From NCBI RefSeq assembly GCF_002807665.1, contig NZ_PEAY01000001.1:1240001-1304000 (forward strand): DNA of 64,000 bases, in the 5' to 3' direction. Source of the DNA: Neoalteromonas facilis (GTDB lineage: Bacteria; Pseudomonadota; Gammaproteobacteria; Enterobacterales; Alteromonadaceae). The number at the start of each line of letters is the position of its first letter. Within the stretch, counting starts at the first letter, position 1. Positions 36,679-59,084 of this stretch are shown in pieces. The notes below the pieces were generated by a model that worked only from the letters and a program-made list of their open reading frames with translations, did not search any database and was not told where the DNA came from. A program made the translations under genes and the position numbers.

Positions 36679-36684
36679 GAAAGT

Positions 36685-42823: not shown

Positions 42824-42851
42824 AAAAAGGCGAGCTAATGCTCGCCTTTTT
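42824..42851. terminator. Bidirectional terminator after the S-layer-like gene
   Basis: Stem GGCGAGC/GCTCGCC with a TAAT loop, flanked by runs of A and T on both sides. On the minus strand the gene at 42875 ends just before it. Confidence 0.9.
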
Positions 42852-42874: not shown

Positions 42875-44296
42875 TTAGTTGAAAGTACCAACTGTTAGGC
42901 GGTCAGTATCAACTTGATTGCTGAACTTAGCACCAACTGTCATTGTTACGTCACCGTTAGGTACGTTAGTAGTAAACTCTAGAGCTACTTTGAAACCTGT
43001 AGTAGCTGCATCGTAACCTTCAGTCGCTAGTGTTGAGCTAACTTCTGATAATAAGTTACGAACACCTGGAGCTGCAGCAGACACTAATAAACCAGCGTCT
43101 TGCCATGCAGTGTGCTCACCTTCTACCATGTAACGAAGTGTAATATCACCAGTTTGAGTACCAGTATTTGTGTGACGGATGATTGGTTGAGTAACTGGAC
43201 CAAATGGTACGTATGGTACTTCAACAACTGAGCCATTCAAGCCCCAATCACCAGCTGCACCGCCACTCAACAACGCTGAATCACCAGCAACTGCACCAGC
43301 TACGTTCGTGCTATCAGAGTCAGTACCGTGATCAGTAAACTCTACTTCAACGTCTACAGTAAAGTCTTGCTCGGCAAGTGCTGCTGGAGCTACCGCGCCT
43401 GCTGTAAGTGCATCATCAGAAACGTCAACTGTTACTGTTTGAGCAGCTACACCTGCATGTTCAACGATGATTTTCTCTGCATCAACAGACGTTAAAGTAC
43501 CGCCACCAACAATAGTGATTGCAGCAGCATTGTTCAGCTGAACCCCTGCAGTATCAGGATCATCGTCCAAAATTGACCAGTCACCGTAGATAGTATAAAT
43601 CATGTTAGTTGGAGTTGCATCGTACACAACACCTGCTGCGTCATTCACAGGAGTGATTACAATTCCATCAGTTGTAACGCCAGTACCGTCGTCAAACGCC
43701 AAACGATTTTGATTTACGTCAATCGTTGCATCAAATGCTGTGGTGACTGATGCAGAGAACTGATCTTGCGTATCTAGAAGGACCGCAGTGCCATCTGTAC
43801 CTGCTGGAGTATCAAGAGCAACACCCGTGCTCGTCTCAGCAGCATAAGTTGCTGATACTGAACCACTAGCTAAAAGATCTGCCTTATCGAAAATCAAGTG
43901 AGTTTCAGCAGTAAAGTCAACTGTCGCACCGATAGTAGTTTCTGCATTAAGGCCATCGTAAGTCAACTCAGTCACACGATATGTAGCCTGAGTGGTTGTT
44001 GCGTTCAACAAACCAAGTGTCATGGTGTCGGCGCCGTCAACTAGCGTTGGGTTTAGTGACGCTGGAAGCGCAGTAGTGTCCAAATCTGCACCAGTAAACG
44101 TCAATGTTAAGATATCACCAACAGTGTATTCAGCACCTAACGTGATAGATACAGCTGGAGCTGCAACTTTAGTCGCTGTAGTTACACCTTCAACAGAAAC
44201 AGTTCTTGTTGTTACACCACCAGCTAGATCCGCAGCTGCTAGTGCATTACCAGCGATACCTGCAACGGCGAGTGCCACAATAGATTTTTTAAACAT
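42875..44296 (-). CDS. Secreted S-layer-like surface protein
   Basis: A 473-residue exported protein with signal peptide MFKKSIVALAVAGIAGNALA. The start is the ATG at 44296 with GGAG ten bases upstream; an ATG three codons earlier is too close to that site. The mature part has no Cys, few Met and Trp, and is rich in Thr, Ala, Val, Asp and Gly with many beta strands. This is the composition of S-layer and surface-array proteins; the start resembles what I recall of Pseudoalteromonas SLR4. It lies directly downstream of a type II secretion operon that may export it. Function by composition and context only. Confidence 0.6.
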   Translation of the reverse strand: MFKKSIVALAVAGIAGNALAAADLAGGVTTRTVSVEGVTTATKVAAPAVSITLGAEYTVGDILTLTFTGADLDTTALPASLNPTLVDGADTMTLGLLNATTTQATYRVTELTYDGLNAETTIGATVDFTAETHLIFDKADLLASGSVSATYAAETSTGVALDTPAGTDGTAVLLDTQDQFSASVTTAFDATIDVNQNRLAFDDGTGVTTDGIVITPVNDAAGVVYDATPTNMIYTIYGDWSILDDDPDTAGVQLNNAAAITIVGGGTLTSVDAEKIIVEHAGVAAQTVTVDVSDDALTAGAVAPAALAEQDFTVDVEVEFTDHGTDSDSTNVAGAVAGDSALLSGGAAGDWGLNGSVVEVPYVPFGPVTQPIIRHTNTGTQTGDITLRYMVEGEHTAWQDAGLLVSAAAPGVRNLLSEVSSTLATEGYDAATTGFKVALEFTTNVPNGDVTMTVGAKFSNQVDTDRLTVGTFN

Positions 44297-44411
44297 TTTA
44301 TCCATTCTCCAAAGTTTCTAGAAACAAAGAGTTTAGTAAGTGATTGGTATTAGTTAGCACTTTCCCAAATTCTCTTTTTAGTTTTACATTTTAGGTTGAT
44401 CGCCATAGGCC

Positions 44412-44472
44412 GTCGCCTAGGCGACATCCAACCGTATGGTAGTGTAGGCCCCAAAGGTTGAACATGTCAACC
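44412..44472 (-). promoter_or_regulatory. Structured leader of the S-layer-like gene
   Basis: Within the leader there is a perfect 14-base palindrome GTCGCCTAGGCGAC (44412-44425) and an inverted repeat GGTTGA-N5-TCAACC (44456-44472). Both are in the transcribed region between the promoter and the start codon. Confidence 0.55.
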
Positions 44473-44499
44473 ATAAAGCCTCAATATATGATTGTTTTA

Positions 44500-44528
44500 C
44501 TTATACATATTAATAAAACCATACTCAA
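44500..44528 (-). promoter_or_regulatory. Sigma-70 promoter of the S-layer-like gene
   Basis: TTGAGT (-35) and TATAAG (-10) with exactly 17 bases between them on the minus strand. The predicted start near 44493 leaves a leader of about 195 bases. The rest of the 44306-44623 gap holds only this leader and the end of the secretion operon. Confidence 0.7.
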
Positions 44529-44623
44529 ACCTATACTATTTAATAAGTTTACTAGCGCGTTCCCTTAAAAATAGCGTAGTTAAGTTATCAAAACGTCTGA
44601 TAAAAACAAGTAAGAATAACGAG

Positions 44624-46675
44624 TTAATTGAATTTAATTCTCTCTAATTCTGCTTGCAATTCATTTTTTACGCCTTCCCACTCGGTTGCATTTGAAATCA
44701 CTCGTGGCGTTACCAAAACGACTAACTCTGTTTTATCACCCGATTTTGACTTAGATTTAAACAAATTGCCAAAAAGTGGGAGGTCGCCTAATAACGGTAC
44801 TTTGCTTTCACCAGAACTATTGTTTTCACTGATTAGCCCCCCGAGCACTACCATCTGGCCATCTTGCGCGATAACCTCTGTTCTTATTTTTCGCTCAAAA
44901 ATAGCAGGCGTTCCACTTACCGTTGAAACGCCATCTACTTGGTTACTGATAGATTGGCTGATCTCAAGCGTTACTATGCCTTTTGCATTGACAGTTGGGG
45001 TCACGGATAATTCTACGCCAGTTTGACGGTAATCAATATTTGTCCTCGCTAAACTGTTCGCATCATTGGCATCTATAGTAGTTCCAGTCACAATTGGGAT
45101 TTCTGTCCCAACATTAATATTGGCTTCTACGCCATCTCTCACAACTAAAGAAGGCCGTGAAATGACATTCACCAGACTGTCTGACTCAAAAAGTTGCATG
45201 TTGACTGAGCCACTGCCTCCAGTTAAAACGTAGCTGAGTCCGCCAACATCTCCCAGACCAAATGCTCCTGACGTTGATAAACTGTAATCTCCGCGACTGA
45301 AGGCAAACTCAACGCCCTGCGCAAACTTATCCGTAAGAGTAACCTCTGCAATTAGTACTTCAAGTGCTACTTGTCGTGGCATAACATCCAAACGCCTAAT
45401 CAATGGCAGTAGCTGCTTATACCTTTTACCGTTTGTATTAAAAACTAACGAATTAGACCTCTCATCTATCACTAATCTGGTTCCATCTTTGCCACTCGCA
45501 ACTAGCCCTGCGCTAGTCTCGCTCTTGCGGACATCTTCACTTTGCTGCCTCCCGCTTGTTTGATTCCCAATAGGAGAGGCAGAGGGTGCATCGCCCATCA
45601 ACCTTGCAAGACTCTCACCCAAATCAATGGCCCTTGCATACTGAGGTTCATAAACAAAATAATCTAGGCTGTCTTCATCAGAAGGCTGATCCAACTGTTC
45701 CAACCAAAAAACTGTTCTCTGAATTACAGGCGGCGTGTTCGCGAACATTATTAAAGTGTTTAGCCTATGCAAAGTTATAAATGATAATGCTGATTCGGGT
45801 TTATTTTCCCCGCTAGCAATTCCTTCCTGGTTAAGGATTTCAGGTAGTTTCTCAACTAATAAATCGAGTGATACAAAAACCGGTTTGTACAATGCAATAT
45901 GCCGATTGCTATAAATCGGTTGATCAACCAACTTTATAAACTCAAGGGCTTTGAGAATATCATTTCGCTTGCCTTGAATTAGCATTAAATTTCTTTCTAA
46001 ATAAGGTGTCACTTTAACGCCTACAAAGCGACTTATCGTAGTGGCGAGGGATGTTTGTGCTCCGTGTACAAAAGGTACCATTTGTAATATATCTAACGAA
46101 GTTTCAGGAACACTTTCAATTGTATTACCGTAACCAAAGGCTGTATTCGATGTGGTATCGGCACTCCCCTTGACAATGTAAAAAAGTCCATCGGAGAACC
46201 TAACTGCGTACCCCCTCTCTTGCAAAAGCTCAAAACTTAACTGGAATAATCGTCTTTCAGATATCCTCTCTCTAATATTCAAGCTAACGGGATTGTTGTC
46301 TGACTGGACATTTTCGCCAAGCACATAATTAACGGAGAGCAAATCACCAAATACATAATGCAAATATTCTTGAAACGGAAGTGAATCTGCTGACACAGAG
46401 ACAGACTCTGAGTCAGAAAAACCTGCAAGCATATCAGTTGCATTATTTAAGTTGGTGTCAGCACCCTCATATGGAAACAGATACTTAACTGCTCGGCTCT
46501 CTTGCTTATCTTCACCAGACGCTATGGTGTCAGCGCCTGAAGCGTTTGCTTCTACTTTTCCTGTTAAGTATGAATTAGATACATTTAGGGGTTGCGTAGG
46601 TGCAGCACACCCAGAAATAACTGCCACCAGAAAATACAAGGAAACATTCTTGCTAAATTTCATATTCATTTTCAC
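44624..46675 (-). CDS. gspD: Type II secretion outer-membrane secretin (GspD-like), lipoprotein
   Basis: A 683-residue secretin that would form the outer-membrane pore. The N-terminal lipobox VISGC (Cys 23) suggests a self-lipidated secretin without separate pilotin. The N-terminal N-domains are followed by the C-terminal secretin domain: VALEVLIAEVTLTDKFAQGVE, then NVGTEIPIVTG, then VVLGGLISE, then LGDLPLFGNLFKSK, then ELVVLVTPRVI. Also resembles MshL, but the presence of gspE-K genes upstream favours a type II system. Coupled to the upstream small gene by a 14-base gap. Confidence 0.85.
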   Translation of the reverse strand: MKMNMKFSKNVSLYFLVAVISGCAAPTQPLNVSNSYLTGKVEANASGADTIASGEDKQESRAVKYLFPYEGADTNLNNATDMLAGFSDSESVSVSADSLPFQEYLHYVFGDLLSVNYVLGENVQSDNNPVSLNIRERISERRLFQLSFELLQERGYAVRFSDGLFYIVKGSADTTSNTAFGYGNTIESVPETSLDILQMVPFVHGAQTSLATTISRFVGVKVTPYLERNLMLIQGKRNDILKALEFIKLVDQPIYSNRHIALYKPVFVSLDLLVEKLPEILNQEGIASGENKPESALSFITLHRLNTLIMFANTPPVIQRTVFWLEQLDQPSDEDSLDYFVYEPQYARAIDLGESLARLMGDAPSASPIGNQTSGRQQSEDVRKSETSAGLVASGKDGTRLVIDERSNSLVFNTNGKRYKQLLPLIRRLDVMPRQVALEVLIAEVTLTDKFAQGVEFAFSRGDYSLSTSGAFGLGDVGGLSYVLTGGSGSVNMQLFESDSLVNVISRPSLVVRDGVEANINVGTEIPIVTGTTIDANDANSLARTNIDYRQTGVELSVTPTVNAKGIVTLEISQSISNQVDGVSTVSGTPAIFERKIRTEVIAQDGQMVVLGGLISENNSSGESKVPLLGDLPLFGNLFKSKSKSGDKTELVVLVTPRVISNATEWEGVKNELQAELERIKFN

Positions 46676-46689
46676 CTAAGACATAGTCT

Positions 46690-47226
46690 TTATTTTCTTG
46701 ATTTGTACATTGTCAGAGTGAGAGTTTCGACTTCACTATTTGAGTCGCTTCCTACATTGTCTGATTTTTTCGTTAAAGAAACGTTGGTCGTATCTATTAT
46801 GTTTATCTTGTAACCCTGATATTCATCATTATCGCTCAGGGAGACCAGAATGACATTCCCAGATTTGCCTTTGGTTGAAAGCAATATCTTGTTAGTCTTT
46901 TCAGCCCGATCACTTATAAAAACACCGAGCAATCTTATCTGTTGTCCATCCAACACCAACTGAGTGAAGTTTCCATTCTCGAGAACCTCGCTTACAAGTT
47001 CTGGCTCAGAATCGCCAGTTCCGGCCAAATTTTGTTCATAACGACGTATAATCTCTTCAACACTCGATACACGCGTATTTGTTACACTAGGAAAAAAGGT
47101 AACCAAATCATCTTGTAAAGATGCAATATTCATTTCTGTATATTGAGTTGACTCTCTCTCACCTATAAAAACATTGATCGCCACGTACGAGCTAACGAGA
47201 AAAACGAAAACACGAAAAAGGTTCAT
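46690..47226 (-). CDS. GspC/PilP-like inner-membrane adaptor
   Basis: A 178-residue protein with one N-terminal membrane helix (about residues 3-21) and a periplasmic domain. Residues near 93-165 (IRLLGVFISD, ILLSTKG, GYKINIIDTTNVSL) follow the homology-region pattern of GspC and PilP, which binds the secretin. A PDZ domain is absent. It lies between the GspM-like gene and gspD with a 4-base overlap upstream. The assignment is inferred from position and pattern. Confidence 0.5.
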   Translation of the reverse strand: MNLFRVFVFLVSSYVAINVFIGERESTQYTEMNIASLQDDLVTFFPSVTNTRVSSVEEIIRRYEQNLAGTGDSEPELVSEVLENGNFTQLVLDGQQIRLLGVFISDRAEKTNKILLSTKGKSGNVILVSLSDNDEYQGYKINIIDTTNVSLTKKSDNVGSDSNSEVETLTLTMYKSRK

Positions 47227-47798
47227 TCTTCTGCTCTATTAAATTTAAAAAATACTAACGAAATCACTCCTCTTGCTCGCCCAAGCGAAGTTTCATTGTG
47301 ATATTGAACCGATAATCTAAAATCACTTAACTTGACAAAGTGCGGAGATGAATCAAGTCGCAATAGCAGAAGAATGATGTCTGACAGTTTGCCTTCAACA
47401 GTCATTGAAAGACGCTGCGCTGTGTAAGCTCCATCGCTCAAGGTTAAGGGCGATTCCCAACCAATATTCTCAACATTAATAGAATATTCACTCAAAAGTA
47501 AATTTAATCGCCGCTGTTCTTCCAACTGGAATTCATTTGAATCCTCAGTGCCGATAAAAACACCATTGAATTCAGAGAGCATGCTTTTTAACTTATCTAC
47601 TTCCGATGCAATCGAGTCTTGGTTCGCAACCAAGGTTTTAACTCTATCGAGTCTCGACTGCTCCATTGCTATCGAATCTTGATTAATATTGATCCAGTCG
47701 ACCCAAGGATAAAACACAAATCTGATAAGAACTAAAATACCAATCACCCAGAAATAGAGGTCGTACTTCCGTATTTCTTCACTCAGTGATTCACTCAT
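47223..47798 (-). CDS. GspM/PilO-like inner-membrane protein
   Basis: A 191-residue protein with one N-terminal helix (YFWVIGILVLIRFVFYPWV) followed by a coiled-coil and a small alpha/beta domain. This is the architecture of GspM and PilO, which pairs with GspL/PilN. It overlaps the GspL-like gene by 8 bases. Sequence identity to known GspM is low. Confidence 0.6.
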   Translation of the reverse strand: MSESLSEEIRKYDLYFWVIGILVLIRFVFYPWVDWININQDSIAMEQSRLDRVKTLVANQDSIASEVDKLKSMLSEFNGVFIGTEDSNEFQLEEQRRLNLLLSEYSINVENIGWESPLTLSDGAYTAQRLSMTVEGKLSDIILLLLRLDSSPHFVKLSDFRLSVQYHNETSLGRARGVISLVFFKFNRAEE

Positions 47799-48918
47799 CT
47801 AATGAAACCTCCACTGGAATAAAGCTTATCACGAATCTTTCTCGCCCCCGATTACTTCTGACTGGCGAATCAAATTTCACGTCAGCAGCGGTATCAATTT
47901 CAGATAATTTAGTCAATATGGACGTAGCTTGTTCAGCTTCACCACTAATAACAACCCGATCATTATTGAAGACAACTCGTTGTATTCGAGCATCCTCTAC
48001 TATAGAAAGATAAGCATTCCAAATCAGGTGTGTTGGAATTTGCTGTTGAGCCAATTCACTATGACCATGTATAACTTTTCTCAGAGTTTCGACTTGTTGC
48101 TGCTCACTCAACGCTGTATCTACTTCCGGCCCATACTTGGATAATTGCTCTTGAATACTCCACTGGTTATACAACAAAAAACCAGAGTAAAGAATTAATC
48201 CTGCAAAAAAAGTACTGCAACTTACGAGTCCGGCATTCTTAACTAATTCTTTTATTAGGCCAGAAGTAAAGGTTGGCAATCGAGCAAATGTTACTATGTT
48301 TGAAAACACATTTTTATAGAAAACATTAAGGATTTGCTTATACGTTTGCCTTTGAGATATGCGTTTAAGCTCCAACGTATCCGGTAGCCCACAAGCAAGT
48401 GAGAAATGTTGCTTATCCTTAATTACTGCTGTCGTGGGTTGAGAATAAACTACTCCCTTTGACTTAATTGCAAAGTAAGACGAGTCTAAATCGTTAGAAT
48501 ACGTTTGTGTTATGAAACCATTAGAAACCGCAACAAGCCAACTTTCAGGTATCAGGCAAAACGCGTCAGGAACGGAGTCGTCAAAAGTCCATATGTTAAC
48601 TATTGTTTTCCCTTTCTCAGTTTTTACAATCTTGTATGAGTACCTGTTGCCTGAATACTCTAACGCTAATAACTTCTTTACATCGCTATGAGACTCGATA
48701 GGCAATACTCTGACTTCCTCGTTGTAACGACTCCTATGCACGATCGCGATCAATTGCCTCAAAATTGACATTGGTTCAAAAGAAGTTACTTCATTCTGCA
48801 AGAGTGAATTAATTGGGATTACATTGTTCGGCCCCACGTATATAGAACACCCTGCAATGAAAGTATTCAAAAACGCTGAGTTTGCTCTATGCTCGTTGCT
48901 CATTTGCTTATTTCGCAC
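47791..48918 (-). CDS. GspL/PilN-like inner-membrane assembly protein
   Basis: A 375-residue protein. The N-terminal half (about residues 15-215) is a cytoplasmic domain, followed by one membrane helix near residues 228-248 and a coiled-coil plus ferredoxin-like periplasmic domain. That is the GspL layout, which links the ATPase GspE to the pseudopilus. The start is a GTG that overlaps the gspK stop as TAGTG; an ATG five codons later is possible. GspL similarity is weak in the cytoplasmic part. Confidence 0.6.
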   Translation of the reverse strand: MRNKQMSNEHRANSAFLNTFIAGCSIYVGPNNVIPINSLLQNEVTSFEPMSILRQLIAIVHRSRYNEEVRVLPIESHSDVKKLLALEYSGNRYSYKIVKTEKGKTIVNIWTFDDSVPDAFCLIPESWLVAVSNGFITQTYSNDLDSSYFAIKSKGVVYSQPTTAVIKDKQHFSLACGLPDTLELKRISQRQTYKQILNVFYKNVFSNIVTFARLPTFTSGLIKELVKNAGLVSCSTFFAGLILYSGFLLYNQWSIQEQLSKYGPEVDTALSEQQQVETLRKVIHGHSELAQQQIPTHLIWNAYLSIVEDARIQRVVFNNDRVVISGEAEQATSILTKLSEIDTAADVKFDSPVRSNRGRERFVISFIPVEVSLDE

Positions 48919-49814
48919 TAAAGTTTACTTATGTTCAATTCGTTAATCGGCCCAGAGGCGCCTGATGCATATGGATTAACATTCCATATACTTTTTTTCA
49001 CCATTGTAATTTCACCGACCGTTGAGCTTATCGTGACATCTATATTGTTTGAGAAGTTAAACCATACACTTTCATCTGGTGCAATGTTCACTATCGACTG
49101 AAAGTCTACTAGAGAAACAAAACCAATCTGCCTTGCGGCAGCGACCATATCAGCCTCTTCGTTGGAACTCAATGATGCGATAAGTTTTTCATCAGATAAG
49201 TACGGATTCAACCAACCGGTACTATGAACAGTAAGCAGGTTTGTCAGAGCAACTATTTCTTCCTGAGAAAATAGGTTTAACTCTTGTAATTGCTGCTTAT
49301 GCGTAAACATTGTATTTGGAAGCCTAACGCTATAAGAATTAGACTCCAAGGTAGTACTTGATGTTACTACATCGTCGGGATCTTGCGCGTCAATTAATAG
49401 TCTACAAATAAAATTGGAGCGAGCATGAGGAATTCCATATTGTCGTAAAGCTGGCACCAGTTTTTCGCAATCAACGTAATTAAGGCTGAGTAATCCTGCC
49501 TGATCTTGTAACTCGATTTCTGACGTATTGAGTAATGAAAATCTCTGACCATAAAAATTCCAATCTATAAAATTAGATCCTGTGTTCAGTTCATTAACAA
49601 ATTTTTCTCTTGTTAAGAGTTCAAACGCAATAATACTTTCCGCATTAAACAACTCAATTTGTGACTGTACTCTATATTGGGAGATTTGGGCGACAGCAAC
49701 CTGTTTTCTTGCCATATCTGTTAGATAAAGCAAAAGGACAGATAAAATAGAAATCAATAACAACACTTGTACAAGTGCGATACCGGTATTCACGCCTCGA
49801 ATTTGTGCTTTCAT
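48918..49814 (-). CDS. gspK: GspK-like minor pseudopilin
   Basis: A 298-residue protein with a type III signal-type start: a short basic leader, then GIALVQVLLLISILSVLLLYLTDMAR, without the usual Glu at +5. The large C-terminal domain (Cys pairs at NYVDCEKL and FICRLLIDAQDPDD, with an acidic calcium-site-like stretch) is typical of GspK, the tip of the pseudopilus. It follows gspJ directly (next base). Confidence 0.8.
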   Translation of the reverse strand: MKAQIRGVNTGIALVQVLLLISILSVLLLYLTDMARKQVAVAQISQYRVQSQIELFNAESIIAFELLTREKFVNELNTGSNFIDWNFYGQRFSLLNTSEIELQDQAGLLSLNYVDCEKLVPALRQYGIPHARSNFICRLLIDAQDPDDVVTSSTTLESNSYSVRLPNTMFTHKQQLQELNLFSQEEIVALTNLLTVHSTGWLNPYLSDEKLIASLSSNEEADMVAAARQIGFVSLVDFQSIVNIAPDESVWFNFSNNIDVTISSTVGEITMVKKSIWNVNPYASGASGPINELNISKL

Positions 49815-50516
49815 TTAAAGCTCAGTACGACTTTCTATAGCGTTTGTCATGTATCTCACTGACTTTTCGTCTAGTTTCAACCTGTAGTCAGCAAGACCCG
49901 ACTCATCAATCACGGATATGTTTATTTCGAAAGGCATAATTTGACGTTCTGTACCGTCGAAAACTGCCGTCCAGCTGGGTGATATTTCTGAGTCATAATC
50001 ACTGGCCTCCCCCTGTTGGTCGTATGTTTCAAATCCATAATATGAAATATTAAACTCACTCAAATCGTCAAATAACACGATGGAACGGTCAAAAACAAGC
50101 TCCTGATCAGTTGAAGTAAGCTCTAGCATGGGCATGGAAACCGCTTGATAAACGACCTCAAATCTTCCGTCCTCTTGTTGAGTGGCATTAATACGAAAAA
50201 CCTCTGACGAAGTAGCATCAAATAGCCCTTGACTATTTATAGATAAAAGACTCTTTTCATTACCAATAAAAAAAAATACGGGCTTCAATTCTCCATTTTG
50301 CTCATGCTCTACTATGTGAGGAGCAATCAAATGCAACTGTCGCTGTATAATTGCAAGCGATTTCATTTTATCTATGGCGCAATCATATTCTTTTGTTTCA
50401 TATTCCCATTTAGAAGACAAGAGTAGATATATATAACTACCCGTCATTAACATTGCTGACAAAATTGTCATCGAGATCATTAACTCTACAAGTGTAAAAC
50501 CTTTCTTACTCGTCAT
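49815..50516 (-). CDS. gspJ: GspJ-like minor pseudopilin
   Basis: A 233-residue pseudopilin. The prepilin peptidase site is KKG-FTLVELMISMTIL at the N-terminus, with Phe at +1 and Glu at +5. The long C-terminal domain of about 200 residues distinguishes it from GspH and GspI. Overlaps gspI by 11 bases. Confidence 0.8.
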   Translation of the reverse strand: MTSKKGFTLVELMISMTILSAMLMTGSYIYLLLSSKWEYETKEYDCAIDKMKSLAIIQRQLHLIAPHIVEHEQNGELKPVFFFIGNEKSLLSINSQGLFDATSSEVFRINATQQEDGRFEVVYQAVSMPMLELTSTDQELVFDRSIVLFDDLSEFNISYYGFETYDQQGEASDYDSEISPSWTAVFDGTERQIMPFEINISVIDESGLADYRLKLDEKSVRYMTNAIESRTEL

Positions 50517-50946
50517 TCCAACTCAACTCATACAACTGAAATTCCCTTGAAGTGTCACCATTATTAACCTGCACGTGAATATTCCATAAAGCATATTTTC
50601 TTGGAAAATTCTCAAGCTGTTGTGAATCAGGATTAAAAAATCGTGGTGGAGATGCTCGTTGAACTAACTGCAATGAGATAGAGTATTCAGTCGAAAAAAC
50701 TTTAAATACTCTCCCATTCAGTACTGTGGGATCGCTATTCCGACGGACCATTTGACGCACATTATTAAGAATAATTGGGACACTAGTATCAATGGTTAGA
50801 TTATCAACTGCTTTTTGGTTGGATAATAAATTAGTTCTAAAAACCAATGTCAAAGACGCTAGCGCCGCAACCATAATAACAGTCGCAACCAATACTTCCA
50901 CTAACGTAAACCCGTTCGGATACTTATACCTAAGTTGTCTTTTCAT
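50506..50946 (-). CDS. gspI: GspI-like minor pseudopilin
   Basis: A 146-residue pseudopilin with prepilin site PNG-FTLVEVLVATVIMVAAL. The start used is the ATG at 50946; the open frame goes 10 codons further into gspH. It overlaps gspH by 17 bases and gspJ by 11. Confidence 0.75.
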   Translation of the reverse strand: MKRQLRYKYPNGFTLVEVLVATVIMVAALASLTLVFRTNLLSNQKAVDNLTIDTSVPIILNNVRQMVRRNSDPTVLNGRVFKVFSTEYSISLQLVQRASPPRFFNPDSQQLENFPRKYALWNIHVQVNNGDTSREFQLYELSWNDE

Positions 50947-51343
50947 CAAAAACCCAAACGTTCTCTTTTCCATCAACTGCGTAATGAACTTCTGTTTGGT
51001 CCAAAAACCCTAAAGCATTAATTTTTAATGTCGTGGTAGCAAAACGCAGCTGTCTAAAACCGAGCACATTTAATTCTTTCCCTGACTCCCCTTCAATTCG
51101 AATTTCCTGCCCACTGAGAGTTATGCGAATTGACTGGTGAGTGAGAAAACTCCTCTCTTTCCAATGCTTTATTAATAAGCGAGCTCTAAGGAGTTCAGAG
51201 CGTGCTTCAGCATTATCAAGAGTTTTCACCGCAAAAGGCCCAACTAATGATATCAACATTGCCATAAGGCTTAAAACCACCAAAATCTCGACTAACGTAA
51301 ACCCATGCTTTTGGCAACGAGAAAGGCTAGAATGAGAATTCAT
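50930..51343 (-). CDS. gspH: GspH-like minor pseudopilin
   Basis: A 137-residue pseudopilin with prepilin site KHG-FTLVEILVVLSLMAML (cleavage before Phe, Glu at +5). Small C-terminal domain. The start overlaps the gspF stop by 17 bases. The assignment to H rather than I rests on order and size. Confidence 0.75.
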   Translation of the reverse strand: MNSHSSLSRCQKHGFTLVEILVVLSLMAMLISLVGPFAVKTLDNAEARSELLRARLLIKHWKERSFLTHQSIRITLSGQEIRIEGESGKELNVLGFRQLRFATTTLKINALGFLDQTEVHYAVDGKENVWVFDEKTT

Positions 51344-52529
51344 TCACAGACACCATACTTAACAACATTGTAATTACGATCCCACCAACAAGAACTCCCA
51401 TAACAACTATCATGACTGGTTCGATAAAAGCTGTAATTCGCTGTGTCCATCGCTCAAATTCATTACGTGAGCGAGTTGTAATCTCCGAGAATACTAGAGA
51501 AAGATTACCAGAGCTTTCTCCGACCTCGATTAGAGATATATGAAATGAAGAGTAAATAGAAACGCCATTAAATGACTTAGCTAGTGAATTTCCTGCCTTG
51601 ACCTTGTCTATCGCAATTGCGATTTGTTTTCTGATGCTTACATTGCTGACTGAATTCAGTGCTTGAGATAGAGCCCGGTCTACAGATAGACCTGCTGACA
51701 ATGTCAACGAGAGAGCATTATTAAACCTGATTCTTTCGAGTAAGGTAACAGCAGAAGAAGCCACCGGAAGTGACAACATGAGGGACTGGACGGCATACCT
51801 CCACCTGTCAACTCGCAATGCATATTTTATGACTACACCTAAACCAATCAATACAAAAAGTAGAAAAACTTGATATTGATTAATCCATTCGCTTACCCCC
51901 AGTAGGGCTTCCGTATACCAGGGAAGCGTTTCAATTGAATCGAACATCGTAGACATGCGTGGAATTATAAAGTTGAAGATAAAGAAAACGCTTAATACAC
52001 AGATACAAAAAATAACGAACGGATAGGTCAACGACGTAATGATTTTTTGCTTAAGTGATTGCTGAAATTTAAGGTCGGTTGCAAGCCTTTCAAACACACT
52101 TGCTAAGTCACCTGTGCTCTCGCCGACCTCAACTAAATTTACGTAAAGTGGTGAGAAAGTTTCGGGTTGTAACCGCAATGCTTCAGCCAAAGTGCTCCCA
52201 GAATGCAACTGCTGAGAAATATGATAAAACAAAGAGCCAAGAGCCTCGCTTTCTATATTTTCTTCCAAAATCTCAATCGACTTATCTATACGGACTCCCG
52301 ATTTTAGAAGCAGAGATAATTCTGATGTAAAAAACTCCAACTCATCTAGCGTAACCTTCCGCTGATCGGAAAAAAAAGGCAATTTCGTCTTTTGCTCCTC
52401 TTTTATCTCCGTACATAACAGGCCTCTTGCCCTTACTATTTCAGCGGCTTCTATCCTACCTTTTGCTTTAACCACCCCTGTAGATCGACCTCCTGAATCA
52501 TCATACCCCTTGTATTTATATACCTTCAT
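51327..52529 (-). CDS. gspF: Type II secretion inner-membrane protein GspF
   Basis: The 400-residue platform protein has two repeats of the T2SSF domain (about residues 65-190 and 270-393), each a helical bundle with membrane helices. Landmarks are LELFTSELSLLLKSG-like (here LEFFTSELSLLLKSGVRI) and VEVGESTGDLASVFERLA. It couples GspE rotation to pseudopilus growth. Overlaps the gspE stop by one base. Confidence 0.9.
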   Translation of the reverse strand: MKVYKYKGYDDSGGRSTGVVKAKGRIEAAEIVRARGLLCTEIKEEQKTKLPFFSDQRKVTLDELEFFTSELSLLLKSGVRIDKSIEILEENIESEALGSLFYHISQQLHSGSTLAEALRLQPETFSPLYVNLVEVGESTGDLASVFERLATDLKFQQSLKQKIITSLTYPFVIFCICVLSVFFIFNFIIPRMSTMFDSIETLPWYTEALLGVSEWINQYQVFLLFVLIGLGVVIKYALRVDRWRYAVQSLMLSLPVASSAVTLLERIRFNNALSLTLSAGLSVDRALSQALNSVSNVSIRKQIAIAIDKVKAGNSLAKSFNGVSIYSSFHISLIEVGESSGNLSLVFSEITTRSRNEFERWTQRITAFIEPVMIVVMGVLVGGIVITMLLSMVSVNEFSF

Positions 52530-54181
52530 TAGCCAGCTACCCTAAGCACTTCGCTGATCGTCGTAACCCCCTTAAGAACCTTTAGAAACCCATCTTCTTT
52601 AAGTGTTCTCAATCCCTTTATAGCATTTAAGTCTCTTGCTTCACGAGAAAAAGAGTCATCCTTCTTCAGTGCTTTAACATCATCGTCACATCTCAAATAT
52701 TCTGCAATTGCAACTCTTCCGACATACCCGGTATTATCGCAATGCTGACAACCTGTTGAAGTTTTGATGTTTTCTATATTTTCTCCATGAAGATCTGCAA
52801 GTTTTTCCAAAATGGATTTGTACGGTGAATCATCCTTCAACTTGTGGTGCCTCGCGCAATTTTCACAAAGCTTTCGAACCAAACGTTGGGCAACAACCGA
52901 TAAAACAGCTGAATTGAGCAAAAATTCATCAACCCCTAAATCCACTAACCGTGTGTATGCAGAAGGGGCATCATTTGTGTGGAGTGTGGAAAAAACTAAA
53001 TGACCTGTCAATGCTGACTGCATTGCAATTTTTGCCGTTTCAGCATCTCTAATTTCGCCCACCATGATAATGTCTGGGTCCTGGCGCAAGACCGTTCGTA
53101 AACCCGACGCGAAAGTAAATCCGATTTCCGAATTCACCTGAACCTGATTAATACCTTCAAGCTGATATTCAACAGGGTCTTCAAGAGTAATGATTTTCAC
53201 ATCATCACTGTTTAGCTTATTAAGCAGTGTATATAAAGTTGTTGTTTTACCAGAGCCCGTTGGACCTGTTAACAAAATAACTCCAGCAGTAGAACTAATG
53301 TCTTCTTCTATTAAACACCTCAGGTCTTCTGATAGGTGCAGTCGGTCCATATCATAGCGAACGCTTTCCTTTCGGAGAAACCTCAATACAATAGATTCCC
53401 CTTCATTTAAAGGAAGAGATGACACTCTAATATCAATAGCTTCACCACCGACTTTTGTTTCTATTTTTCCGTCCTGGGGACGCCGCCTTTCAGCAATGTC
53501 CATGCCTGATAAGATTTTGAGGCGTGTGATTAGTGGCATTTGCATTCGCGGAATGATTTTTTCCGCCTCGTGGAGAACGCCATCAATTCGGAAACGCGCC
53601 CTGTATTGCCCATCAATGGGTTCAATATGCATATCAGAGGCGTTTCTTTTTAATGCTCTGATCAATAATGAGTTTAACAAATTGACAATCGGCGCTTCCG
53701 ACGCCAATTCAATTAATTTCTCCTCATCACTTACTGTGCTTATCCCCGCACTATCTTCGAAAATAGAGCCTAGGCGAGTCATTAAAACCTGCAACTCACC
53801 TTCTGTAGCAATGTACAATATGGTCTTTAGTTTTTTCTTTGCTATCCATTGATTTATATCCCTATTGACTGGGTTTAAGCATGCAAAAGTCCATTGATTT
53901 CCTTCTACATTAAGAGGAACCCAGTTTTGATTTATTAGGAATCGATACTCTGTTTCGGTAATCAGTGGCACTGGTTCGTTCAACCAGTCAGCAATATCCA
54001 AACAAGGGATGTCAAAATAAGTGCTGTAAATTAGAGGTAATTGATCACTGGGCAGAGCTCCCATATTAACCAATATGTTTTCCAAGCTACCTCCTTGTTT
54101 TTCTTGGTAGGCTTTAGCTTTATTTAAATCCTCAACCTCTACGCCAAAACAGTCAGACAGCGTTTTTTCTAAGTTTTTCAT
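52529..54181 (-). CDS. gspE: Type II secretion ATPase GspE
   Basis: The 550-residue hexameric ATPase drives the pseudopilus. Residues 1-150 form the N-terminal N1E domain. The Walker A box GPTGSGKT is at 306-313, the Walker B and Asp/His boxes (DPDIIMVGEIRDAETA) at 369-384, and the metal-binding CxxC pairs at 439/442 and near 480 (CQHCDNTGY). All ATPase motifs are intact. Start overlaps gspG by 4 bases (ATGA). Confidence 0.92.
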   Translation of the reverse strand: MKNLEKTLSDCFGVEVEDLNKAKAYQEKQGGSLENILVNMGALPSDQLPLIYSTYFDIPCLDIADWLNEPVPLITETEYRFLINQNWVPLNVEGNQWTFACLNPVNRDINQWIAKKKLKTILYIATEGELQVLMTRLGSIFEDSAGISTVSDEEKLIELASEAPIVNLLNSLLIRALKRNASDMHIEPIDGQYRARFRIDGVLHEAEKIIPRMQMPLITRLKILSGMDIAERRRPQDGKIETKVGGEAIDIRVSSLPLNEGESIVLRFLRKESVRYDMDRLHLSEDLRCLIEEDISSTAGVILLTGPTGSGKTTTLYTLLNKLNSDDVKIITLEDPVEYQLEGINQVQVNSEIGFTFASGLRTVLRQDPDIIMVGEIRDAETAKIAMQSALTGHLVFSTLHTNDAPSAYTRLVDLGVDEFLLNSAVLSVVAQRLVRKLCENCARHHKLKDDSPYKSILEKLADLHGENIENIKTSTGCQHCDNTGYVGRVAIAEYLRCDDDVKALKKDDSFSREARDLNAIKGLRTLKEDGFLKVLKGVTTISEVLRVAG

Positions 54182-54573
54182 TGATGCTCGATATCTGCGT
54201 CAGGACCTTCTCCACCGACTTTACCGTCTGCCCCATAAGATAATAGCTTATATGGCATATCACCTTCCTCGCTTATTGAGTATTCATATGCGTTTCCCCA
54301 TGGATCCAAAGGAATAGCTTTAGGTAAATAGGGACCGTTCCATCGGGCTGAGTCGCTATTCCGAAGCTCATCCAAAGATGCGGGATATCGCCCCATATCC
54401 AAACGGAAAGTATCAATTGCTGTTTCAAAAGCATTCATTTGAGTAGCCGCTATACCTCTCTCGGCACTGCCGAGCTGCTGAAAGAACTTTGGAGCAACTA
54501 GTGATGCCAATAATCCCAAAATAACAATAACAATCAATAACTCTATCATGGTGAAACCTTTGCTGCGTTTCAT
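54178..54573 (-). CDS. gspG: Type II secretion major pseudopilin GspG
   Basis: A 131-residue major pseudopilin. The prepilin site is SKG-FTMIELLIVIVILGLLASL. The C-terminal GADGKVGGEGPDADIEHQ carries the acidic calcium-binding region of GspG. The start used is the ATG at 54573 with AGAGG nine bases upstream; a TTG directly before it is also open. It is the first secretion gene after the SLBB gene. Confidence 0.92.
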   Translation of the reverse strand: MKRSKGFTMIELLIVIVILGLLASLVAPKFFQQLGSAERGIAATQMNAFETAIDTFRLDMGRYPASLDELRNSDSARWNGPYLPKAIPLDPWGNAYEYSISEEGDMPYKLLSYGADGKVGGEGPDADIEHQ

Positions 54574-54595
54574 CAATTGTACCTCTTAATTAATC

Positions 54596-57298
54596 TTACA
54601 AACTTCCGATAGCTGCCACTGCAACTGCCAGCTGATATATTATTTGAGTGGCATTTGACCAAAGTGTTAGGTTATCAACATTATCTGAATCAAATGGGAC
54701 AACTATCGTGTCTCCAGGCCTAATGCTCGCCGACTCTCGATTCGAACCAAACCAGTAACTTTGGGCTCCCGGAATCATCACGGAACCATTTTTGCGAATT
54801 ACATATATGCGATTTTCATCCGCAAGTCCTCTAGTGCCGCCACTGAGTTCTATGTACTCATCTAGCGTCAGCCTCTCACTATATAAATGAGAAGTTGGCA
54901 CATACACTTCACCAATCACGTTAACGGATTGAGTTATGCTCGGGATTATCAGCTGATCACCGTCCTGAAGGGTTACATCAGAGCTGTGAGAACTAGATAA
55001 AATCGCCGGCAGGTCAATGACTAGTCGCCCGACGGCCTCTGCACTCACAAGGTCTTTTAATAACTCTTTAGCTTGATCATAACTTATGACAGACCCCGCT
55101 CCTTTTTGTTGTCGAAGACTTTCTGATGCAATTTGCTTGCGAAGCTCTTCGGCTAGACGCTTTAAATTTTCTCTTTCCTTTACCCGCAAATCCTCACGTG
55201 TAAACAGTGCTGCTTCTAAATCACCGAAATCAGTTACACCACCGACTCTCTCAAGAAGCTGAGTCAAAGTTTCACCTCTTTTAACCGTATATTCGCCGGG
55301 GAATTTAACTTCTCCTTTGACGACAACTTTCAATTCCTCTTGCCACTCTGGGATGGAAAAAAAATTGAGCCTATCTCGACTTTTAATCGTCAAACTATCT
55401 TTTGAACCAGCAAGAAACGTTTTAGGCTCAAATTCGAGATGGTTTATATTGGCTTCTCCATTTGGGTCTAACTCTAACCGAGTTATTTCAGCTCTGGATA
55501 AAAACGCAGATTCAGTCAGGCCTGAGGCAGCCTTTATTGCGCCTAACACGCTTAAATTTTTCGTCAATGGGTATTTCCCTGGCACTTTAACTTCGCCTGC
55601 GACTTCAAAGATACTAATTGGTTCGCCAACACCAGCCTGCCTTTCTAGTGCTTTTAATACTGGCCTCAAAAGATTCTTTCTGGAGAAGAGTGAGACCTCA
55701 CTCATTTCACGCAGTTCATTAATTTCCTCTTCAGTTAATTTTATACGTGGAATTGCTTGTCTCTCTTCACTGTCTGATTGATTATTTTCAGTCCCTTCTA
55801 GAACACCGATTGATTGTAGGAACTCATCTTCCCGAATTCTTTTTTCCCACATTTCTTCAGACCATTGTTCAAGTTCCTTTTCTGTTTGGGCGTACGCTTT
55901 AATTGTACTTGGTAAATAAATCTTCTCTTCTTGAGAGGAAAACACGATTATTTGATCTTTTTCTTCTAGCACTATGTCACCATTTTCTTGCAGTGGCCCC
56001 AAAGTAAGATCTACTTGCCAAGTTTCAATGCGTTTTGAGTGTCCCTCTATTTCACGAACTATTAGCACATAGGTAAAATCAGCATTAGGTAATAGAGATT
56101 CATCAATATTCCCTAATAATTTGGATAAAAGTAATCCTTCGTGCCATTGATACGCGCCGGGCCTTGCTACAGCGCCAAGCAGATAAACTGAAGAACCAAC
56201 GTAATCTGAGGTTTTATCGACAAATATTCTGTCTCCTGGAAGAACAGTGAAATTATCTTCGTTGAGATTGGCTGTCAGCTGCACACGTTGCCCATTGATG
56301 ACGCGCTCAATACTGATTGCTTTGGTGAACGCATCAGGAAGCACCCCTGCGGCGAGGCTTAATACTTCCCGTAACTTATTCTCTCCAGATAGTTCATATA
56401 TTGCAGGTCGCCTGACCTGACCATCTACTTCAATTGAAAACTGCAAAGCTGGTACAAAAACCACATCATTCGTTTGCAATCTGACATTGTCTGAGGCATT
56501 GCCGTGACTCAATAATTCATATAGATCAAACGTAGAAACAGTTTTGCCGCCCCTTTTTATTTGAATTTGTCTAAGAGAGGCAATATCTGTCACTCCTCCA
56601 CTAGCAATTAAAGCTTCAGTCAAGCTTGATAAGGAACTTACATTATATCGCCCTGGGTTTGTAACTTCGCCCGCCACGAAAATATTTAAGGTGCTAATAT
56701 TACCCATTGTCACAATGGCTTTTGATCCAGTAATCTGCCTCTCGACTACGCTTTTAACATAGTCCTTAGCCTCTCCGAAGCTGAGTCCTGCGACAGATAT
56801 GGGACCAAGACGCGGAACAATGACATTACCGTCCGACTCAACTAGAAGCACGTACTCGAAATTTTCAGTACCGTACACCCTGAGAAGTATCTCATCACCA
56901 CTTTTAAGAATAAAACTATCTGGAACCATAATCGTGGGATTCAAATTACTATTGGCATTATTGGGCGAAAAAACGTCACTTCCATATAGTGTTAATTCAA
57001 CATCTTCAGTTTCTAAACTTGACAACTCCGAATCTTGATTGTTCGCATAACTTGAATAGGTGAAGGGCTCTTCAGCTTCAGTAGAATTGCTTTTTGTGTT
57101 TGTACTTCCATACCTCTGTTGGGACAAGATAGAAAGGTCAAACCCCATTTGACGCGCGAGGGTTTCTTGTTGAGCTTTAGGCAAAGCTTTGAACTGTTGA
57201 ATCTGCTGATTAGTCAACGATTGAGAAAAGCTTGTCCCAGTAAAAAATAATATCACACAAGAAACAACATTGATGATGAAACGTTTATCCGGAAGCAT
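54596..57298 (-). CDS. Multi-SLBB polysaccharide export protein (Wza-like)
   Basis: A 900-residue exported protein. A signal peptide covers residues 1-25 (TGTSFS-QS) and the Wza-type poly-export domain is at about 125-200. Then come six SLBB repeats with the pattern xVxGEVxxPGxY near residues 206, 288, 370, 563, 657 and 795, separated by a charged coiled-coil insertion (470-540). One terminal hydrophobic stretch (IIYQLAVAVAAIGSL) could anchor it. SLBB domains bind or line polysaccharide export channels. It opens the secretion operon, 22 bases before gspG, with AGGAAA upstream of the ATG. Confidence 0.82.
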   Translation of the reverse strand: MLPDKRFIINVVSCVILFFTGTSFSQSLTNQQIQQFKALPKAQQETLARQMGFDLSILSQQRYGSTNTKSNSTEAEEPFTYSSYANNQDSELSSLETEDVELTLYGSDVFSPNNANSNLNPTIMVPDSFILKSGDEILLRVYGTENFEYVLLVESDGNVIVPRLGPISVAGLSFGEAKDYVKSVVERQITGSKAIVTMGNISTLNIFVAGEVTNPGRYNVSSLSSLTEALIASGGVTDIASLRQIQIKRGGKTVSTFDLYELLSHGNASDNVRLQTNDVVFVPALQFSIEVDGQVRRPAIYELSGENKLREVLSLAAGVLPDAFTKAISIERVINGQRVQLTANLNEDNFTVLPGDRIFVDKTSDYVGSSVYLLGAVARPGAYQWHEGLLLSKLLGNIDESLLPNADFTYVLIVREIEGHSKRIETWQVDLTLGPLQENGDIVLEEKDQIIVFSSQEEKIYLPSTIKAYAQTEKELEQWSEEMWEKRIREDEFLQSIGVLEGTENNQSDSEERQAIPRIKLTEEEINELREMSEVSLFSRKNLLRPVLKALERQAGVGEPISIFEVAGEVKVPGKYPLTKNLSVLGAIKAASGLTESAFLSRAEITRLELDPNGEANINHLEFEPKTFLAGSKDSLTIKSRDRLNFFSIPEWQEELKVVVKGEVKFPGEYTVKRGETLTQLLERVGGVTDFGDLEAALFTREDLRVKERENLKRLAEELRKQIASESLRQQKGAGSVISYDQAKELLKDLVSAEAVGRLVIDLPAILSSSHSSDVTLQDGDQLIIPSITQSVNVIGEVYVPTSHLYSERLTLDEYIELSGGTRGLADENRIYVIRKNGSVMIPGAQSYWFGSNRESASIRPGDTIVVPFDSDNVDNLTLWSNATQIIYQLAVAVAAIGSL

Positions 57299-57578: not shown

Positions 57579-59084
57579 ATGACAACAAAATCTAACGACA
57601 CAAGTTTCTTTGGCCATCCAGGGGGCCTGCAAACATTATTCTTCACTGAGATGTGGGAACGTATGAGTTACTACGGCATGCGTGCACTCTTGGTATTATT
57701 TATGACGGCCAGTCTTCAAGAGGAAGGCTTAGCGTTCACCGTTGCAACAGCAACGGCTATTTATGGCCTTTACACTGGCGCAGTCTACTTTATGGGATTA
57801 CCTGGTGGTTGGTTGGCTGACCGCTTACTGGGCGGCCAAAAAGCCGTATGGTACGGTGGTATTATTATCATGTCAGGGCATATTGTTCTGGCCATTCCTA
57901 GTACAAAAACATTCTTCATTGGCCTTATTCTCGTCGTGTTAGGCACCGGCTTGTTGAAGCCTAATATTGGCGCAATGGTCGGCATGCTTTATAGCGACGA
58001 AGACAAGCGCCGCGACAGTGGCTATACCCTCTACTATATGGGTATCAACATTGGTTCTGTCATTGGTTATATTGTATGTGGTTACCTTGCGACCAACTGG
58101 GGTTATCATTACGCTTTTGGTGCAGCTGCTGTAGGTATGGCATTAGGCCTTGTTCAATACAAATTGACCCAACCTAAGTTAGAAGGCGCCGCTGAAAAAC
58201 CTACCGTTGACCTGTCACCCAATGCTCAGCGCCTAAGCTGGATGGTTATTGTCGGATTCTTAATTGCACTAGTGCTAGTGACCACGATGGTGTCTACTGG
58301 CGCGATTGTTATTGACGCGGTAGCACTTGCAAAATATGTGGCTATATTCTTCACTCTAGTGTTTTTAGCCTATTACGCTGCAATATTTTTCTTTGGTAAT
58401 TTAGATGGCAACGAAAAGCGTAAATTGGGCGCCCTCTTCTTAGTCTGTATAGCCTCAATCTGTTTCTGGGCAGGATTTGAACAAGCGGGTTCTTCACTGA
58501 ACTTGTTCGGACGTGACTACACTGACCGAATGATTGGTGCATTTGAAATCCCACCGGCTTGGTTCCAATCTGCAAACTCATTCTTCATTATTATTCTTTC
58601 ACCATTCTTTGCCGCCCTATGGATCAACCTAGGCAAGCGCATGATGGACCCGTCATACGGCTTTAAATGTGCTATTGGTCTGATCATCATGGCGACTGGC
58701 TTTATAGTTATGTTCTTTGCAGCTCAGCTTGCTGCCAGTGGCCTGAAAGTGGCACCTTATTGGTTGGTAATGACTTACTTCTTGCATACTGTTGGTGAAT
58801 TATGTCTGAGCCCAGTAGCGTTAAGTGCTGTAAGCAAACTATCGCCTAAACGATTTGCTGGACAAATGATGGGTGTTTTCGTGCTGACTTATTCAATCGG
58901 TAACGTAGTTGCAGGCTTACTTGCTGGGAACTTTGACCCAAGCCGTTTAGATGAAATGCCTGGGCTCTACATGCAGATCAGCTTATTCAGTATCGCCATC
59001 GGTATTGTGGTGCTGTTATTCGTGCTTAAAACTCGTGTGTGGGAAAAATTACCTGCGAGCCAAGCGAAAACTGCTGACGCATGA
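57579..59084 (+). CDS. POT family proton-dependent oligopeptide transporter
   Basis: A 501-residue symporter for di- and tripeptides, with about fourteen membrane helices. The N-terminal family signature FFTEMWERMSYYGMRALLV has the ExxERFxYYG-type motif (here EMWERMSYYG). GINIGSVIGYIV is the second signature. Closest type is DtpT/YdgR-like. The next gene overlaps its stop by 4 bases. Confidence 0.92.
   Translation: MTTKSNDTSFFGHPGGLQTLFFTEMWERMSYYGMRALLVLFMTASLQEEGLAFTVATATAIYGLYTGAVYFMGLPGGWLADRLLGGQKAVWYGGIIIMSGHIVLAIPSTKTFFIGLILVVLGTGLLKPNIGAMVGMLYSDEDKRRDSGYTLYYMGINIGSVIGYIVCGYLATNWGYHYAFGAAAVGMALGLVQYKLTQPKLEGAAEKPTVDLSPNAQRLSWMVIVGFLIALVLVTTMVSTGAIVIDAVALAKYVAIFFTLVFLAYYAAIFFFGNLDGNEKRKLGALFLVCIASICFWAGFEQAGSSLNLFGRDYTDRMIGAFEIPPAWFQSANSFFIIILSPFFAALWINLGKRMMDPSYGFKCAIGLIIMATGFIVMFFAAQLAASGLKVAPYWLVMTYFLHTVGELCLSPVALSAVSKLSPKRFAGQMMGVFVLTYSIGNVVAGLLAGNFDPSRLDEMPGLYMQISLFSIAIGIVVLLFVLKTRVWEKLPASQAKTADA

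Follow-up and report, generated by a model that had tools for sequence, protein, structure and literature searches.

We analysed a stretch of DNA from Neoalteromonas facilis (positions 1,240,001 to 1,304,000 of contig NZ_PEAY01000001.1; 64,000 nucleotides, hereafter the window), and in particular a string of genes in which a large SLBB-domain protein is followed by eleven type II secretion system (T2SS) genes and by an S-layer protein of the Slr4 family. According to the open reading frame (ORF) calls, the string runs from 57298 to 42875, all on the minus strand, in the order SLBB, gspG, E, F, H, I, J, K, L, M, C, D, slr4. An earlier note on this DNA had described the same strand, order and overlaps, with a Thr/Ala/Asp-rich protein at the end, and the ORF calls confirm that description. 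The features of the string are the following:

54596..57298, minus strand: large SLBB/Poly_export protein, 900 aa (PF10531, PF22461, PF02563)
54178..54576, minus strand: gspG major pseudopilin, the left border of the exchanged block discussed below (TIGR01710, 121.2 bits, cut-off 88.85)
52529..54181, minus strand: gspE ATPase (TIGR02533, 512.6 bits, cut-off 630)
51327..52529, minus strand: gspF inner-membrane protein (TIGR02120, 288.9 bits, cut-off 424)
50930..51343, minus strand: gspH-like minor pseudopilin (PF07963; TIGR01708, 5.9e-7, under cut-off)
50506..50976, minus strand: gspI-like minor pseudopilin (PF07963, 1.4e-5; no NCBIfam match at 1e-5)
49815..50516, minus strand: gspJ-like minor pseudopilin (PF07963, TIGR02532)
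48918..49814, minus strand: gspK-like minor pseudopilin (NF037980, E 1.9e-10, under cut-off; also our own GspK profile)
47791..48918, minus strand: gene in the gspL position (position only, no family match)
47223..47798, minus strand: gspM-like gene (NF040576, E 5.5e-5, under cut-off)
46690..47226, minus strand: small gspC/pilP-like gene (named by position; weak PilP fold match)
44624..46675, minus strand: gspD-type secretin (PF00263, 3.9e-47; PF03958; TIGR02517, 317.6 bits, cut-off 351)
44306..44623, minus strand: 318-bp spacer separating gspD from slr4; promoter-like match inside it at 44470-44441
42875..44305, minus strand: slr4, S-layer protein, 476 aa (PF19526, E 2.7e-52)
42824..42851, minus strand: terminator-like stem-loop and T run 3' of slr4 (12 pairs, 6 of them G-C)

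The protein encoded at the end of the string, which the earlier note had taken for S-layer-like, could be identified as Slr4: it reaches 178.7 bits on PF19526 ("S-layer protein Slr4"), against a curated cut-off of 25, and is the single match to this family in the window's genome. It is rich in Thr (16.1%), Ala (13.9%) and Asp (9.5%) and contains no Cys; among 16 Slr4 proteins, 10 have no Cys and six have two to four. The N-terminus fits a Sec signal by eye, with low pLDDT over residues 1-25, and the presumed mature part holds 60 acidic versus 12 basic residues. An AlphaFold2 model (mean pLDDT 78) predicts a mostly beta fold. Since the query TM does not exceed 0.22 among the 50 Foldseek matches listed, which comprise Ig-like adhesins, pilins, integrins and immune receptors, we did not assign a fold; none of these 50 is named an S-layer protein, and a sequence search returned no related solved structure for Slr4 (best E 0.026). 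Two or three tandem slr4-like genes stand behind one T2SS in genome G374 (L035:13079-17551) and in Pseudidiomarina (L191-L193), and in genome G052 the slr4 frame is interrupted, leaving pieces of 217 and 294 aa (L047:2865-4411).

Among the T2SS proteins of the window, only GspG passes its NCBI cut-off. GspD, E, F, K and M match their own T2SS families, all under the NCBI equivalog cut-offs, D, E and F score highest on T2SS models, and GspH, GspI and GspJ have the prepilin N-terminus. A secretin, the E ATPase, F, the major pseudopilin G and minor pseudopilins, the set by which a T2SS is recognized, are all present. Judged by these profile matches, the machine is a divergent lineage, a member of the superfamily that stands outside the canonical equivalogs. 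The protein in the GspL position and the small C/P protein had no significant family match in our family-profile scans, so that the names gspL and gspC/P follow from gene position only, and profile comparisons with GspL and GspC of the canonical T2SS in the same genome were negative. In the model of the C/P protein (pLDDT 68), the two best Foldseek matches are PilP/type IVa pilus chains, both weak (E 0.022 and 0.21). No prepilin peptidase (GspO/PilD) is named among the genes of the cluster, and the rest of the genome was not searched for one.

The window's genome holds four secretins and, on another contig (C12), a T2SS of the canonical type: its GspC, D, E, F, G and L exceed the NCBI cut-offs. 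ORFs also occupy its H, I, J, K, M and N positions; the one at N, the only one of these scanned, gave no match. In a tree built from GspE, GspF and GspD, 27 rows of the divergent system separate from 9 canonical rows. A canonical-type GspE, assigned by score band and checked against the family model for the window's genome only, stands besides the divergent one in all 21 genomes examined. Of the 17 Slr4 genomes in which SLBB has a match, nine have the canonical GspE gene on another contig than SLBB, and eight have it at least 71 kb away. We also noticed other accessory T2SS with the gene order E-F-G-...-D in several families (L168-L184; L169 and L171 in family f12), which adjoin large secreted proteins or sit inside nucleotide-sugar gene clusters.

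With starts as called by the ORF tool, on which all spacings depend, SLBB and gspG are 19 bp apart and the genes that follow are spaced by -4 (G-E), -1 (E-F), -17 (F-H), -47 (H-I), -11 (I-J), 0 (J-K), -1 (K-L), -8 (L-M), -4 (M-C) and 14 bp (C-D), against 318 bp between gspD and slr4. The earlier note had given slr4 a strong promoter of its own. What we found in this gap is only a consensus match (TTGACA-18-TACACT, 10 of 12 positions); promoter-like sites are not enriched in the region, with 29 found against 36.8 +/- 5.3 in its shuffles. Better evidence for a separate unit than the promoter match is that the gap before slr4 is kept in 14 relatives, at 226-923 bp (median 445); the inner gaps from gspE to gspD in relatives (n=125) have a median of -4 bp, and five exceed 100 bp. 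slr4 is therefore probably a transcription unit of its own.

Across the 394 genomes of the order that form our main sample, PF19526 was found in 18, and a T2SS adjoins slr4 in every one of them, with slr4 after gspD in 16 and divergent from gspG in G075 and G150. A class-wide sample of 360 genomes contained PF19526 only in the window's own genome and added none. A GspK profile built from 16 Slr4 genomes, with at most six candidates scored per genome, gave 247 bits or more in 17 Slr4 genomes (16 of which had gone into the profile), 56 bits in the divergent Slr4 genome G230, and 154, 142 and 111 bits in three genomes with a sister system described below; outside the Slr4 and sister-protein genomes, no match among these candidates exceeded 96.3 bits. 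A scan of further named genomes, for which the wide Slr4 alignment was too divergent and a three-sequence alignment gave nine loci, revealed six more genomes with the cassette, that is, with slr4 and its T2SS: Arsukibacterium, Rheinheimera and four Pseudidiomarina.

The protein and the machine also covary. In a Mantel test on 15 of the 18 Slr4 genomes (G052, with interrupted slr4, G175, with broken SLBB, and G230, without an SLBB match, were left out), the distances of Slr4 track those of GspD even when SLBB is partialled out (partial r 0.445, P 2e-4). Slr4 distances are uncorrelated with those of SLBB and of canonical GspE (-0.02 each), and the Slr4-SLBB correlation given GspD is -0.187. Taken together, the adjacency in 18 of 18 genomes, the GspK profile and the Slr4-GspD covariation lend good support, at the level of sequence, to a T2SS dedicated to the S-layer protein, as the earlier note and, before it, published work had proposed.

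The SLBB protein matches Poly_export (PF02563) with 40.8 bits, PF10531 in six stretches, and GfcC_C (PF06251) with 14.4 bits (cut-off 20, E 0.041); it belongs to the large outer-membrane polysaccharide export (OPX) proteins, perhaps to class 2B. Three more places in the window's genome have SLBB-domain matches, so it need not be the sole exporter. At E 1e-20 or better, the SLBB protein has matches in 170 of the 394 genomes. A single near-full-length match (E 1.5e-149 or better) exists in 82 of these, of which 16 carry Slr4 and 66 lack it. Because SLBB homology alone could not separate roles, we read the SLBB neighbourhoods of 57 genomes without Slr4 (55 of these 66 and two with split matches; three of the 57 stretches are shorter than 5 kb). 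The chain-length gene wzz lies within 6.5 kb of SLBB in 51 of them, SLBB usually standing at the head of a wzz/polysaccharide locus, and T2SS genes are in view in only one, G347, which carries the sister cassette.

Within the Slr4 genomes, SLBB lies at most about 6 kb from the cassette in 16 of 18, upstream of gspG in 14 of these and beyond slr4 in G075 and G150. It directly precedes gspG in four (the window's genome, G213, G005 and G233), and is separated from it by an initiating transferase and/or wzz in eight, by two other genes in G244 and by six genes in G374. Polysaccharide genes like those of the window stand beyond slr4 in 14 of 17 stretches. In the six named genomes, SLBB is on the contig of slr4 in five, about 18-32 kb from it, and on another contig in one. 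The cassette is thus housed beside the exporter in most of the Slr4 genomes sampled, and the exporter is not specific to the cassette: its link to the T2SS and Slr4 is one of position only. The earlier note had joined SLBB, T2SS and Slr4 into one dedicated system and had named co-occurrence of the parts in relatives as one test of this idea. T2SS and Slr4 do occur together; SLBB occurs independently of them, in the 66 genomes without Slr4, does not covary with Slr4, and has different relationships, and this part of the proposal is not supported.

These differing relationships are seen when trees are compared. On an SLBB tree of 76 rows, from which short or broken copies were left out (the G311 copy ends at the edge of the fetched stretch), SLBB copies mostly group by host family, and at least 10 changes of the Slr4 label are required. 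Using approximately unbiased (AU) tests on clades chosen after viewing a first tree, we found that the cassette clade G134+G244+G321 (support 100/100) is rejected by both canonical GspE (p 7.6e-73) and SLBB (p 4.1e-66). Conversely, G244 and G302, which belong to one genus, are sisters with 100/100 support in the canonical GspE and SLBB trees, and the cassette rejects this pairing (p 8.4e-89). G147+G234 has 100/100 support for the cassette and is rejected by SLBB (p 0.001), and G134+G234 is rejected by the cassette and supported at 81/81 in the SLBB tree. Two cross-family cassette pairs in the GspE, GspF and GspD tree, G175/G311 and G347/G330, agree with exchange as well.

Pairwise identities tell where the change occurs. 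For SLBB, G244 is closer to its congener G302 (61%) than to G134 (42%); the order is reversed for GspG (57% with G302 versus 78% with G134), GspE (61 versus 74), GspF (46 versus 72), GspD (41 versus 59) and Slr4 (28 versus 48). The transferase found between SLBB and gspG in other loci follows SLBB, with 76% identity for G147-G321 and 73% for G134-G234. Since identities flip between SLBB and this transferase on one side and gspG on the other, we place the left border of the moving block at gspG and conclude that slr4 moves together with the machine. These comparisons of sequence indicate that the gspG-to-slr4 block has been replaced between lineages beside a resident SLBB gene, exchange being the presumed cause of the tree conflict.

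Three genomes (G330, G347 and G357) lack PF19526 and carry instead, beside a T2SS of the same kind, a secreted-looking protein of 581-596 aa with four Cys and a DsbA-like neighbour. The four-Cys protein stands after gspD in G330 and G347 and before gspG in G357, and a search with it found exactly these three of the 394 genomes. Over its final ~115 residues, the protein resembles the C-terminal part of Slr4 (hhalign probability 94.9%, E 4.6e-8), and three other T2SS-adjacent secreted proteins used as controls gave 2.9% or less. Because of this match, we conclude that two surface-protein families sharing a C-terminal module are associated with a single T2SS lineage. The four-Cys family may form an S-layer of its own, and its members may be among the 108 published homologues. 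The DsbA-like thioredoxin gene lies by the four-Cys gene in all three genomes (L160:7095-7832, L166:16526-17257, L167:3492-4319), and a lipoprotein signal was matched in one, L166 (PF08139). An ORF of L167 that blastp had returned as an SLBB candidate at a weak cut-off (1e-2) was rejected, as it belongs to the four-Cys surface-protein family.

Around the string, the window contains the following further features:

57579..59084, plus strand: gene divergent from SLBB, whose product we take to be a POT/MFS peptide transporter
38516..39808, plus strand: Wzx-type flippase (PF01943)
31656..32705, plus strand: Glycos_transf_4 initiating enzyme (PF00953)
16273..17208, plus strand: Wzz chain-length regulator of nearby polysaccharide genes (PF02706)

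A gene of the 57579..59084 type is the divergent SLBB neighbour in several relatives without Slr4 as well. In other Slr4 loci, the space between SLBB and gspG holds relatives of the initiating enzyme. Relatives of the flippase lie directly past slr4 in several other loci of this kind. The polysaccharide genes of the window form two blocks (16273-18874 and 29651-41679) with apparent housekeeping genes between them, and comprise wzz, polymerase-like, flippase, and glycosyltransferase genes, two sulfotransferase-like genes and a GH88-like gene, several of them named by eye. At 31013-31453, an ORF resembling UDP-glucose dehydrogenase by eye has 146 aa, versus ~390 aa for a similar ORF in L160, and is possibly truncated. 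Pieces of an IS3-like transposase, also recognized by eye, lie at 41918-42634, just beyond slr4, on the border to polysaccharide genes of the opposite orientation.

Considering all the above results, we regard it as highly probable that this is an Slr4-type S-layer locus, in which an exchangeable cassette of an S-layer gene and its own T2SS is housed in a polysaccharide locus. According to this model, Slr4 would be made from what is probably its own transcription unit, cross the inner membrane via Sec and fold, before being exported for assembly on the surface by a second T2SS reserved for it, whose eleven genes precede slr4; the ordinary T2SS on another contig would serve other substrates. 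The SLBB gene would stand at the head of a Wzx/Wzy-type polysaccharide locus and encode the resident polysaccharide exporter of the outer membrane, and the gspG-to-slr4 block would be swapped as a unit between lineages, much like capsule or O-antigen genes. A likely reason for this placement may be that the coat is anchored by, or must fit, the polysaccharide of the locus, as suggested for Aeromonas. The secretion route in this organism, the formation of a lattice, which for Slr4 proteins would be square (p4) and is known from P. tunicata only, and the attachment of the coat to the polysaccharide are presumed parts of the model.

Several observations weigh against this model. Slr4 correlates weakly with GspE (0.23; partial 0.252, P 0.006) and GspF (0.13), and since GspF, GspE and GspD correlate with SLBB (0.53, 0.36 and 0.35), the machine partly follows the host and is not independent of it; the correlation of SLBB with canonical GspE is itself weak (0.10). 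In 500 shuffles, the Slr4 label never clustered as strongly on the SLBB tree as it does in the data. Canonical GspE leaves both G147+G234 (p 0.10) and G134+G234 (p 0.13) undecided, and the fast-evolving I, J, L and C proteins barely differ between G244-G302 and G244-G134 (28/30, 28/30, 23/24 and 19/25%). It is possible that old duplicate cassettes followed by differential loss would yield the same conflicting trees. Individual genomes depart from the pattern as well: G230 has a divergent cassette and no SLBB match, G052 combines its interrupted slr4 with an SLBB gene ~27 kb from gspG, and, against a strict bond between coat and polysaccharide, in G175 SLBB is split into three frames while the slr4 and T2SS frames look intact (L033:17074-19762, L250), which suggests either a coat without the SLBB exporter or a sequencing error. 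In four Pseudidiomarina (G399-G402), the cassette GspE gene lies 13-15 kb from the canonical one, and in the three of them with SLBB on the same contig, SLBB is farther away than that; a simple rule placing the cassette always inside a polysaccharide locus therefore does not fit. Finally, the passages of the literature that we consulted report no gsp deletion, so that the secretion route of Slr4, deduced here from sequence, is inferred even for P. tunicata.

Some of these points would be expected if SLBB, T2SS and Slr4 were one co-evolved system in which the SLBB protein couples both exports to give a combined protein-polysaccharide coat. The close spacing of SLBB and gspG on one strand, the presence of SLBB near the cassette in 16 of 18 Slr4 genomes, the polysaccharide-type genes beyond slr4, the clustering of the Slr4 label and the partial correlations with SLBB given canonical GspE (GspD 0.337, P 0.004; GspE 0.352, P 0.024) all agree with this account. 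However, we consider it unlikely in view of the 66 genomes with a near-full-length SLBB and no Slr4, the lack of Slr4-SLBB covariation, the at least 10 label changes and the broken SLBB of G175 beside an intact-looking cassette. A better-placed competitor, less probable than our model and still to be reckoned with, is that the neighbourhood has no functional meaning, the polysaccharide locus being a hot spot for variable surface genes where recombination between conserved flanks is frequent. The change of sides of the identities beside a conserved SLBB and transferase fits this account, as do the ~18-32 kb between SLBB and slr4 in Pseudidiomarina, Rheinheimera and Arsukibacterium (the five of six genomes with both on one contig) and the nearness of the Pseudidiomarina cassette to the canonical T2SS. 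Against it, the presence of VapA and a T2SS in an O-antigen cluster of Aeromonas suggests a functional reason, without being decisive (PMC3835674).

Two further alternatives concern the machine itself. Many characterized T2SS export several substrates, and Slr4 might likewise be one of several, the system mainly secreting other proteins such as enzymes. We hold this to be very unlikely, given that a canonical T2SS is also present, that cassette and Slr4 are present one-to-one, and that in all three sister-cassette genomes the T2SS is paired with one other surface protein. Even less probable is a type IV pilus-like or competence machine. GspE scores 494 bits on PilB and the best fold matches of the small C/P protein are PilP chains, weak as they are; yet GspG exceeds the cut-off of its own family, the highest scores of D, E and F are those on T2SS models, and neither PilT nor PilMNO was seen among the cluster genes, where neither was specifically searched for.

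Going beyond the exchangeable-cassette model, we propose that the S-layer type switches in the way of capsule serotypes: coat protein and matched T2SS would travel together and take the place of the counterpart cassette next to a resident exporter gene. Sister T2SS lineages would then serve at least two surface-protein families, Slr4 and the ~590-aa four-Cys protein with its DsbA-like partner, and the C-terminal module of ~115 residues common to both would be what the T2SS recognizes or what binds the polysaccharide of the locus. We regard this extension as a tentative proposal, the chances for and against it being nearly balanced.

Substrate recognition by T2SS is a long-standing open question. 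The locus type described here seems to offer one machine with one substrate in 21 of the 394 genomes (18 with Slr4 and three with the sister protein), and the apparent natural swaps, together with a C-terminal module common to two different substrates, make recognition testable by exchanging substrates and secretins. If the coat must match the local polysaccharide, the evolution of S-layer and capsule would be linked across a common group of marine bacteria, which might bear on phage resistance and biofilms. In our view, two points deserve following up: the apparent exchange of the cassette next to the resident exporter, and the C-terminal module that the two substrate families share.

The core of our model was already known, since Slr4 and an adjacent, probably dedicated T2SS were published in 2020 by Ali et al. 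(PMC7821379); the pairing is also given in AnnoView in 2024 (PMC11094555). As in the window, the Slr4-family gene of Pseudoalteromonas tunicata and its relatives, marine Gammaproteobacteria, immediately follows a T2SS operon (G, E, F, K, D and others), the P. tunicata gene being longer (1,737 bp). Its deletion abolishes the S-layer, and horizontal transfer of slr4 itself has been suggested (PMC7821379). The gene set had been thought undescribed in the earlier note. This does not hold for the T2SS-Slr4 pairing. SLBB has no occurrence in the main text of either paper; a search combining SLBB, type II secretion and S-layer found no paper in the library searched. Neither placement in a polysaccharide locus nor exchange of the cassette appears in the passages of the two papers that we consulted, and what appears new here is that the cassette seems to be exchanged between species as a unit beside a resident polysaccharide-export gene.

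With class 2B OPX proteins (KpsD-like, PMC9603273), the SLBB protein shares Poly_export, several SLBB repeats, its length, the absence of a lipobox by eye and a weak GfcC_C match, and it differs in that this match falls under the cut-off. Caulobacter RsaA likewise forms a Gram-negative S-layer but leaves the cell by type I secretion, and Gram-negative S-layers are said to be held by surface molecules such as lipopolysaccharide (PMC7821379). The closest parallel to the window is Aeromonas hydrophila AL97-91, where the VapA S-layer gene and its own T2SS genes are embedded in the O-antigen cluster (PMC3835674). That locus differs in that VapA is another protein, in its gene order (E-F-G-G-J-J-K...D) and in having rmlBADC, and the part of its Table 6 that we consulted has no SLBB row. 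What the two loci have in common is an S-layer gene with its own T2SS inside a polysaccharide locus, and for Aeromonas the authors suggest that the S-layer is anchored by the O-antigen.

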